A DNA stretch of 61,697 nucleotides. Origin: Pegethrix bostrychoides GSE-TBD4-15B (lineage in GTDB: Bacteria; Cyanobacteriota; Cyanobacteriia; Elainellales; Elainellaceae). Location of the stretch: the NCBI GenBank assembly GCA_019359155.1, contig JAHHHV010000011.1:1-61697 (forward strand). Reading direction: 5' to 3'. Position 1 is the first letter of the stretch. Each line of letters opens with the position of its first letter. The position numbers and the translations under genes are program-made. Of this stretch, positions 4,187 to 21,891 are shown one piece after another. Under the pieces are notes generated by a model. The model was not told where the DNA came from. It saw only the letters and a list, made by a program, of their open reading frames with translations, and made no database searches.

Positions 4187-4219
4187 CCTCATGCTAGAAA
4201 CCTCATGCTAGAAACCTCA
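4187..4219. repeat. 14-bp tandem duplication carrying the prfB start codon
   Basis: CCTCATGCTAGAAA occurs at 4187-4200 and again at 4201-4214, followed by CCTCA. Each copy contains an ATG. The first opens a six-codon frame that stops at 4209-4211. The second (4205) is the true prfB start. Confidence 0.9.
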
Positions 4220-5327
4220 GATATCAAGCGCGAAGTAGAACTGCTCTCCAATCGCCTGGGTACAACCCAGGACTATCTTTGACCTGCCTGCTCTCAATGC
4301 CAAAATTCAAGACTTGGAACAAATTGCCGCTCAGCCTGAGTTCTGGGAAGACCAAACAACGGCTCAAAGAACGCTGCAACAGCTCAACGAACTCAAGTCA
4401 AGCCTAGAGCAGCTAGAGCGCTGGAATTCTAGCCTGGGCGATGCGAAGGCGGTGCTGGAGTTGCTGGAGCTAGAAGCCGACGAAGCACTGCTTCAAGAAG
4501 CTCAGGAGAACCTGACCATGCTGAGCCGCGAGCTAGATCAGTGGGAGCTGCAACAGCTGCTCTCAGACACCTACGACCAGCATGGGGCAGTGCTAAGCAT
4601 TAACGCTGGAGCAGGCGGCACAGACGCGCAGGACTGGGCAGAGATGCTGCTGAGAATGTATACGCGCTGGGCGGAAGATCATCGCTACAAGGTGCATCTT
4701 TCAGAGATTTCAGAGGGGGAAGAGGCGGGGATTAAATCGGCAACGCTGGAAATCGAAGGCAAATATGCTTACGGCTATCTGAAGGCCGAGAAAGGAACAC
4801 ATCGGCTGGTGCGAATCTCGCCGTTTAACGCCAACGACAAGCGCCAGACAAGCTTTGCTGGGGTGGAGATCATGCCAATTTTGGATGACTCGATTGATTT
4901 AGTAATTCCAGACAAAGACCTAGAAATCAGCACAACTCGGTCGGGCGGTAAAGGAGGGCAAAACGTCAACAAGGTAGAAACTGCCGTGTTGATCAAGCAT
5001 TTGCCGACGGGGCTGATGGTGCGTTGTACTGAGGAGCGCTCGCAGCTGCAAAATAAGGAGAAGGCGCTGGCTAGACTCAAGGCAAAGCTGCTGATTATTG
5101 CTCAAGAGCAGCGGGCGAAGGAAATTGCTGACATCCGAGGCGATATTGTCGAAGCGGCTTGGGGCAATCAGATCCGCAACTATGTCTTCCATCCCTATCA
5201 GCTCGTGAAAGACCTGCGAACGGGCGTTGAGACAACGGCAATTGCTGACGTAATGAATGGCGAACTCGATCTGTTTATTGAAAGCTGCCTGCGGCAAGAG
5301 AATCAGCTAACGGAAAGCGGGGCTTAG
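4205..5327 (+). CDS. prfB: Peptide chain release factor 2 (programmed +1 frameshift)
   Basis: RF2 reads UGA and UAA stops and triggers peptide release. Translation starts at ATG 4205 and reaches an in-frame TGA at 4280-4282 within the shift site CTT-TGA-C, preceded by a Shine-Dalgarno-like AGGAC. Shifting +1 (join 4205-4279 with 4281-5327) gives 373 residues, the usual RF2 length. The main frame carries the RF2 codon-recognition tripeptide SPF (residues 205-207) and the catalytic GGQ (250-252, in [10 protein letters not shown]). The frameshift is the known autoregulatory device: low RF2 favours shifting. The start region lies in a tandem duplication. Confidence 0.97.
4270..4283 (+). promoter_or_regulatory. 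prfB programmed +1 frameshift site
   Basis: The slippery element TATCTTTGAC ends at 4283, with the UGA stop at 4280-4282 and an AGGA-like anti-Shine-Dalgarno match just upstream. The layout matches the classical RF2 recoding site: the ribosome slips from CUU to UUU at the slow UGA. Confidence 0.92.
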
Positions 5328-5436
5328 TCAATCAAGAGTCGTTTCCGAACCGCGTTTGATCTACTCGAAGGCTGTGCTTTGCTGACTCTACGTCTTAAGC
5401 TTTCAAACCCATAACCAAAAATACGAGGAAAATATC

Positions 5437-5637
5437 ATATTTACAGAGTTCAACGAACGTCTGAGTGATTCGCTTGGCCATCAGGTGCAGATCTGGATTG
5501 TCGGGACGCGGGAGCAAGTCAACCACATCATCAGCGAGATGTACATGCGGCAGATGATTACCGACCGCAGTCAGTTCTCGCCAATGGTTCCTGCACCGTT
5601 CGCGCAGGGCAAATTCATGAGCGTGCTGATCCGCTAA
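5437..5637 (+). CDS. Small conserved-looking protein with an apparent ATA start
   Basis: 66 residues. The body reads FTEFNERLSDSLGHQVQIW, then IVGTREQVNHIISEMYMRQM, and ends in GKFMSVLIR. I recall similar small proteins of unknown function in cyanobacteria. The frame is open from 5386, yet holds no ATG, GTG or TTG before the conserved part. A GAGGAA ribosome site (5425-5430) sits at normal distance from ATA at 5437, which would give 'MFTEFNERL'. So either ATA (or ATC 5434) starts translation, or the original ATG has mutated. It lies between prfB and the convergent thioredoxin gene. Confidence 0.55.
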   Translation: MFTEFNERLSDSLGHQVQIWIVGTREQVNHIISEMYMRQMITDRSQFSPMVPAPFAQGKFMSVLIR

Positions 5638-5652
5638 AGCTAGGGAAGCGAC

Positions 5653-6282
5653 TCACTCAGAAGCAGGCATCACCTGCGCCCCGTGGCTGCGCGGATCTTC
5701 TCCAGCGCTGGGCATCAGGCTCGGCTCAACCTGCGAGATCCGTCCGCGCTGCTGGACATAGGGCAAAGGCTCAGCGACGGCTAGGGCTTGCAGGTTAGCC
5801 GTCATAATTGGGCGCGGCTGTTCGCCAATCGTGCTGGCAATCGGCTCGCCCTTAATATCCAAAAAGGTGAAGTGCGGGATAGCCTCAACCTGGTAGTGCA
5901 GCATTTCTGGTAGCCACTTGTTGTTGTCCACGTTCAGCATCACAAAATTCACCTGCTGACCATATTCCTGCTTCAGATCGCTCATGTCTTTAGCCATCGC
6001 CTGACAGGAGGTACACCAGTCGGCATAAAACTCCATCAGAGTAGGCTTACCGTTGGCCAGCGCCGTTTCCAGCGGCACCGCAGATTTGGCCATTGCCGCC
6101 AGCGAACCCGTGCTGCTGCCCGTTTGCAACCCCAAAAACAGCGCCACGCTCAGCGCCACCGCCGCCAGCACCAACACTAAGTTGCGAATCTGCCTGCCCA
6201 TCTGGCTAGTTTGTAGGTTAGGCTCAGCAGCAGGCGGAGCCTGAGGAGTTGGCGACTGAGGAGTTGGCGAGTTGGCAGTCAT
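5653..6282 (-). CDS. txlA: TxlA/HCF164-like membrane-anchored thioredoxin
   Basis: 209 residues. A proline-rich N-terminus is followed by one membrane segment (~34-51, VLVLAAVALSVALFLGL) and a thioredoxin fold with active site WCTSC (C90, C93) and the cis-proline loop EAIPHFTF. The family (TxlA in cyanobacteria, HCF164 in plastids) is tethered to the thylakoid, faces the lumen or periplasm, and passes reducing power to proteins such as cytochrome c or b6f maturation factors. A ~45-residue C-terminal tail after the fold is unassigned. Convergent with the small ORF at 5437. Confidence 0.85.
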   Translation of the reverse strand: MTANSPTPQSPTPQAPPAAEPNLQTSQMGRQIRNLVLVLAAVALSVALFLGLQTGSSTGSLAAMAKSAVPLETALANGKPTLMEFYADWCTSCQAMAKDMSDLKQEYGQQVNFVMLNVDNNKWLPEMLHYQVEAIPHFTFLDIKGEPIASTIGEQPRPIMTANLQALAVAEPLPYVQQRGRISQVEPSLMPSAGEDPRSHGAQVMPASE

Positions 6283-21809: not shown

Positions 21810-21891
21810 GCGGAACTGGCGGAATTGGTAGACGCGCATGATTCAGGTTCATGTGCCGCAAGGCTTCCGGGTTCAAGTCCCGGGTTCCGCA
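21810..21891 (+). tRNA. trnL: tRNA-Leu (anticodon CAG)
   Basis: Acceptor stem GCGGAAC pairs with GTTCCGC at 21884-21890, discriminator A. The D-arm has AATTGGTAGACGCGC and the anticodon stem CATGA/TCATG encloses TTCAGGT (anticodon CAG). A long variable arm of class II type and the T-arm GGGTTCAAGTCCC follow. CCA is not encoded. No intron is present. Confidence 0.96.

Follow-up and report, generated by a model that had tools for sequence, protein, structure and literature searches.

A small open frame without a start codon

Why should a small open frame that looks conserved lack a start codon? The question is raised by a locus in the window, the whole stretch of 61,697 nucleotides analysed here, which is contig 11 of the 5.72-Mb, 92-contig draft genome of Pegethrix bostrychoides GSE-TBD4-15B. 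The sequence-only reading had placed a start-less open frame at 5386-5637 on the forward strand, with GAGGAA at 5425-5430 ahead of an ATA at 5437, and all of these coordinates were borne out. Read directly, the frame follows an in-frame TGA at 5383-5385, is open over 5386-5634 and closes with TAA at 5635-5637. From the ATA at 5437-5439 to the stop there are 66 codons. The earliest in-frame ATG, GTG or TTG is a GTG at 5485; a start at this position would yield 50 amino acids and cut into the conserved part. The following features of the window are referred to below:

5437..5637, forward strand: copy of the small-protein family, best read as a pseudogene; 66 codons and stop, with ATA for the ATG of the family
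5437..5439, forward strand: ATA at the start-codon position; base 5439 is A, as opposed to G in each of the 40 other aligned copies that have a letter there
5425..5430, forward strand: GAGGAA, Shine-Dalgarno-like site retained from intact copies
5337..5436 (left edge approximate), forward strand: degenerate 3′ remnant of the leader RNA; the 3′ strand of its helix P1, ACGTCTTAAGC, is kept at 5390-5400
4205..5327, forward strand: prfB-like upstream neighbour, with CTT TGA C at 4277-4283 and the stop at 5325-5327
5653..6282, reverse strand: thioredoxin-like convergent neighbour; its relative in genome G004 is likewise adjoined at the 3′ end by a family copy, which begins with ATG

The impression of a conserved small gene proved right, and the similarity goes beyond chance. 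Counting the frame itself, the own genome contains 41 matches to the 66 residues, at 52–100% identity and with the shortest over 23 residues; 38 of them have E < 1e-16. Protein matches were also found in 22 of 60 close genomes (own genome included, 1–60 each), and 135 stretches of the named collection encode a relative. The 80 of these 135 that were listed include Elainella saxicola E1, filamentous cyanobacterium CCP2, Leptolyngbyaceae and related records. Among them 79 of 80 copies start with ATG, a share to be read with the search pattern in mind, which partly favours ATG-starting copies. Intact ORFs comprise about 65–106 codons. Eight loci with relatives on the minus strand (L012, L017, L020, L022, L023, L024, L029 and L033) enter none of the counts given here.

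The small protein could not be assigned to a known family, as Pfam, NCBIfam and PHROGs gave no significant match (best E 0.016). Sequence relatives in the PDB were not found either (best E 0.095). A structure model of modest quality (mean pLDDT 68) shows one helix, a strand, a helix and two strands, and its fold has no significant match in the PDB (best E 0.45). For the window subfamily, plasmid, phage and viral records and contigs contained no match. Relatives of the protein, annotated as hypothetical, do occur on 12 Nostocales plasmids. In the six that we looked at (L198-L203), a ParG or replication gene adjoins one relative and tyrosine recombinase genes lie near two.

A structured leader RNA precedes intact copies

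Intact copies have in common at least about 300 bp of sequence 5′ of the ORF. This part consists of a promoter-like pair, in most intact copies TTGYRC and TATGAT, and a leader of about 200 nt, which is followed by the ORF. In the leader fold, a long helix P1 encloses two hairpins, P2 and P3, and a pseudoknot is present in addition. For the A2 alignment, 54 of 60 cluster representatives from 121 leaders were used; four truncated or rearranged leaders were left out together with L085 and L088, whose P1 5′ strand lies outside the stretch used, and L089, L091, L100 and L129 were restored by hand. From these 54 leaders RNAalifold derived 22 pairs, 14 of them with compensatory changes.

The structure tested on A2, pseudoknot included, was defined by ourselves. 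It pairs 82.9% of cells, compared with 26–43% with slid partners, and double changes occur in 32 of its 50 pairs (217 such cells). The covariation score was 0.251 versus 0.159 in shuffled alignments, with 0 of 500 shuffles as high. Further pair types, one of five measures, numbered 67 and did not exceed the 68.4 of shuffled alignments, of which 385 out of 500 were as high. P1 is paired in 98% of cells. Its pairs include 75 G-U cells and one A-C cell, which means that the strand is constrained as RNA. Helix P5 is paired in just 64% of cells. In the pseudoknot, CCTCGCTAATG inside P1 pairs with CATTAGCGAGG, which contains the Shine-Dalgarno sequence. The pseudoknot helices are paired in 62–84% of cells and show double exchanges between C-G (30) and U-A (8) and between A-U (14) and G-C (13). 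When both groups of leaders were aligned (A6, 45 sequences), double changes were seen in 18 of 20 pairs, and the covariation score rose to 0.437 versus 0.157 in shuffled alignments (0 of 500 as high). Of the traits by which riboswitches are recognized, these leaders hence have a conserved, covarying structure and, not in every member, a platform able to cover the ribosome site.

The own-genome leaders are almost invariant except for the apical loops of P2 and P3, which are hypervariable. Among 33 own copies (L037-L075) there are 23 different P2 loops, and a loop profile was drawn up over 20 copies. The set comprises 40 different 7-nt loops, and for eight of these the reverse complement also occurs in it. 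Kissing between the P2 and P3 loops was considered and rejected, because complementarity gave no signal (5.73 versus 5.98 in shuffles, 1745 of 2000 as high). Between the P2 loop and other leader regions no complementarity signal was found either. In the leader of L021 (the same locus as L112), the P1 3′ strand is split by an insert that, as judged by eye, has short inverted ends and lies between TTAA-like bases; this insert resembles a small non-autonomous element.

The window copy has lost its start codon and the 5′ half of the unit

In the window, similarity to intact copies starts only about 100 bases 5′ of the ATA and is degenerate. The remnant lacks the P1 5′ partner strand, both hairpins (P2 and P3) and the promoter. 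With R1, a covariance model of the leader that covers P2 and P3 only, no match at E up to 1 was found in the window contig among the 150 candidates scored out of 2258. Neither promoter-like nor terminator-like sites were found in 5200-5720; read-through from prfB could thus transcribe the copy. We take the gene at 4205-5327 to be prfB-like from its sequence and CTT TGA C at 4277-4283 to be the programmed +1 frameshift site typical of release factor 2 genes. The gene runs for 25 codons from ATG 4205 and then reaches CTT TGA C, and the listed ORF begins only at TTG 4314.

For the start-codon comparison, 46 other copies were aligned to the window ORF, of which 40 cover the third base of the codon. 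The other copies begin exactly at the codon corresponding to 5437, with ATG. A5439 is the sole base of the window ORF that is absent from all 46 other copies; the second base of codon 2 and the first base of codon 37 are each common to one other copy. Where the window has ATA TTT ACA GAG, a GAGG-type site is followed by ATG TCT ACA GAG in the majority of intact copies, so that a second transition lies in the codon directly after the ATA. The nearly invariant V37 is altered as well. Since the window ORF contains neither an internal stop nor a frameshift, the loss of its start looks recent.

The convergent gene at 5653-6282, presumably of TxlA/HCF164 type, provides a reference point in a sister species. 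In G004 (PMM_0073), a family copy with ATG stands beside a relative of this gene, 86% identical; the contig ends 21 bases upstream of the family copy, with the leader outside it. Conserved prfB-txlA synteny was dismissed, as no prfB lies beside txlA in the G001-G003 stretches examined. In the own genome, all 34 leader-bearing copies start with ATG. The seven leader-less ORF matches are the window copy, C72 (with ATG), C75:118608, C64 and C55:3295 (without ATG) and two at contig ends. Loss of the start hence goes with loss of the leader, as leader-bearing copies all have ATG and leader-less ones often have none.

Two explanations had been offered for the ATA, a fresh start-codon mutation or a genuine AUA start that keeps expression low. 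The first agrees with the G in all 40 comparable copies and with the ATG of the G004 copy at the same thioredoxin-like gene, and it stands. According to the second, the window copy would be a working gene kept low on purpose. Its Shine-Dalgarno-like site, the spacing and the whole frame are intact, and no terminator-like site separates it from prfB. However, the ATA is private to the window (0 of 40 other copies), the copy has lost its promoter together with most of its leader and V37 is changed, and we consider a deliberate AUA start highly improbable. An error of sequencing or assembly in a repeated gene is also quite improbable. What speaks for it is that just one base is private, in a repeat family from a 92-contig draft, but the copy lies inside a 61.7-kb contig, 5′-truncated next to prfB, and has the second transition in the next codon. 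Because of this truncation, the copy is degenerate whatever base 5439 is.

The window copy is hence best read as a recently silenced pseudogene, and its ATA start is ordinary decay. AUA is a weak start codon. Some residual translation from the ATA might still take place at a low level, since the reading frame is unbroken; the copy would otherwise be silent.

The RNA is widespread and mostly followed by the small protein

With R1, the RNA was found in 32 of 60 close genomes, compared with the 22 of 60 that have the protein. Behind the additional matches lie divergent small ORFs of the same kind. A survey of the class with a second model, R2, covered 388 genomes, of which 105 (own genome included) gave a match to the RNA; at the level of genera these were 50 of 160. 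The survey used E up to 0.001, strict filters and 12 candidates scored per genome. In 12 chosen genomes, fuller scoring at E up to 0.0001 gave 72, 49, 32, 24, 21, 17, 14, 11 and 10 matches in nine and none in three, including G002 of the window genus; the 49 matches belong to G055. The E-values of both models are rough because their calibration was shortened.

A member of the small-protein family lies at most 900 nt behind the RNA in 63 of 76 inspected loci (49 of 56 and 14 of 20), which are listed, mostly high-scoring matches and no random sample. The HMM used was built from the A5 alignment, in which 10 of 11 rows come from the 56 loci, so ten of the 49 positives match by construction; L168 and L169, already known as protein copies, were left out of the 56. 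In the 47 loci with a picked start, the ORF begins 152–328 nt after the start of the RNA. The 13 misses are L175 and L184 at contig ends, L181 and all ten G055 loci.

In G055, other ORFs follow in 10 of 10 inspected leaders. An ORF containing ...LFVHRKDRGGQFISYR... stands behind L172, L185, L195, L277 and L281 and one containing ...GGINTPG(R/K)F... behind L246, L279 and L280; yet other ORFs follow L278 and L282. At several G055 loci, a further ORF of the type LWDYISR...LLLV.ANYTD comes after these.

In leaders of the wider group, the strand that comes after P3 can often pair with the ribosome-site region, as CACTCCACTA can with TAGTGGAGTG. The mean complementarity was 16.6 versus 14.1 in shuffles (0 of 300 as high) over 47 loci, i.e., the 49 positives minus two without a usable start. 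With one locus per genome, it was 16.0 versus 14.0 over 31 genomes (0 of 1000). In several genomes of the wider group it is weak or missing, for example at the G302 and G352 loci.

The frequent company of RNA and small ORF (63 of 76 loci) brings up autoregulation, in which the small protein itself, rather than a metabolite, would bind the leader. The top fold matches of the structure model, themselves non-significant, include the RNA-binding NusE/S10 and KH folds. Against this, all ten inspected G055 leaders precede other ORFs, six Nostocales plasmid relatives of the protein (L198-L203) have no R1 match at E up to 10, and even the best fold match reaches only E 0.45. We regard autoregulation as a possibility on the unlikely side.

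Copies are dispersed, and their flanks vary

In the own genome, 15 copies have the common 5′ boundary (C/T)AACTA, and in most copies similarity ends near the stop codon. A consistent target-site duplication was not found: one copy has a 9-base repeat, and repeats are otherwise of 7 bases or less. In congeners, the element is absent from 10 of 10 orthologous downstream flanks examined, which belong to five own copies. These are the ten clearest orthologous flanks, and weaker or paralogous matches such as L260 were left out. Upstream of the ten flanks, no nucleotide similarity was found either, so the copies lie at synteny breaks and no clean empty site was seen.

Two copies have truncated neighbours. 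The copy L042 (G000:C75:99251) directly abuts a truncated ORF that, in our estimation, resembles an integron integrase. L055 (G000:C40:3128) is followed downstream by a gene similar to a permease; within the stretch, this gene matches the G002 relative over residues 222-350 only. At the other end of the unit, a stem of at least 9 bp occurs within 75 nt of the stop in 22 of 41 own copies, the window copy included, compared with 12% of 345 background windows. These post-stop hairpins have no T run; they are common to some groups and differ among copies with near-identical leaders and ORFs.

The unit might hence be a non-autonomous mobile element or cassette, with an RNA that serves mobility and not gene control. 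The 41 copies in one genome are in line with this, as are the common 5′ boundary, the end of similarity near the stop codon and an absence from all ten congener flanks, which means that the position differs between close relatives. So are the truncated integrase-like gene that abuts one copy and the 5′-shortened permease gene at another. On the other hand, the small protein is the only conserved ORF of the unit, which encodes no transposase or recombinase, and neither a consistent target duplication nor a clean empty site was seen. Pairing that is rich in G-U and that reaches the ribosome site points to work as RNA instead. That the RNA serves mobility alone is in our view rather doubtful; mobility and control of translation can be true together.

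A model for translation control in cis

An intact member may be viewed as a small transcription unit that comprises a promoter-like site, the leader RNA of about 200 nt, the ORF and often a long hairpin after the stop. One strand of the leader would pair with the Shine-Dalgarno region: in the own-genome subfamily as a pseudoknot, and in some members of the wider group through a different strand. The folded leader would then cover the ribosome site, until a signal shifts the fold and uncovers it. Translation would thus be controlled in cis, in a riboswitch-like or autoregulatory manner.

With a probability of roughly three in four, we propose that the window holds a recently silenced pseudogene of a high-copy cyanobacterial family, whose intact leader most likely controls translation in cis. 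Judged from sequence comparison, the leader RNA can be read as a candidate for a new riboswitch-like class, and it would act as the switch.

We may further speculate that the leader is a portable translation switch and a hitherto undescribed, widespread cyanobacterial RNA class. It stands ahead of tiny proteins in up to some 70 copies per genome and is re-used before unrelated small ORFs in one lineage, and its two hypervariable apical loops could give each copy its own recognition, be it of a partner RNA, an invader RNA or a protein. If loops were specific for each copy, one genome would hold a repertoire of separately addressable small-protein switches. This broader proposal we consider unlikely at present.

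Under the reading of translation control in cis, an RNA without a match in Rfam 15 would be one of the cis-regulatory RNA candidates with the highest copy numbers per genome. The testable questions that it raises are what the RNA senses, which role the tiny protein plays and why some lineages amplify the pair while G002 has none.

Comparison with known RNA families and systems

Rfam scans at gathering scores of 19 loci and the window returned just two elements, a group II intron in L014 and a tRNA at 21810-21891 of the window. A permissive scan of L056 gave nothing. In eight diverse loci, permissive scans gave four weak matches far below gathering scores, namely symR on the strand opposite the RNA (E 0.051) and three microRNA-family matches. 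In the open-licence literature, as far as titles and abstract openings go, we found no description of the present RNA or protein.

Among described RNAs, the nearest to the present one is the Downstream-peptide motif, now called the Glutamine-II riboswitch, RF01704. Membership of the present RNA in this family was rejected, since a search of the own genome, with 150 of 484 candidates scored, gave no RF01704 match at E up to 1; none of the 14 control genomes passed the cut-off of this search either. The motif is described as a structured cyanobacterial leader before ORFs of 17–100 amino acids that belong to no known family (PMC2864571). Like RF01704, the present RNA is a structured cyanobacterial 5′ leader ahead of short ORFs of no known family. 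It differs in size and architecture and in its far higher copy number.

In the pseudoknotted translational riboswitches SAM-II and preQ1-II, a strand within the fold pairs with the Shine-Dalgarno region. The internal strand of the present leader does the same; in contrast to both, this RNA is larger and is followed by tiny unclassified ORFs. Most described riboswitches precede metabolic genes, whereas the genes behind the present RNA are not metabolic.

The dispersal of the unit also invites comparison with integron gene cassettes. The 5′ boundaries of the present copies loosely fit RYYYAAC by eye; no partner for an attC core box was made out. Numerous dispersed small ORFs, each with a 3′ hairpin of individual sequence, are a feature of both systems. 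Unlike cassettes, the present copies are solitary, and their conserved part is the leader together with the ORF rather than the 3′ hairpin.
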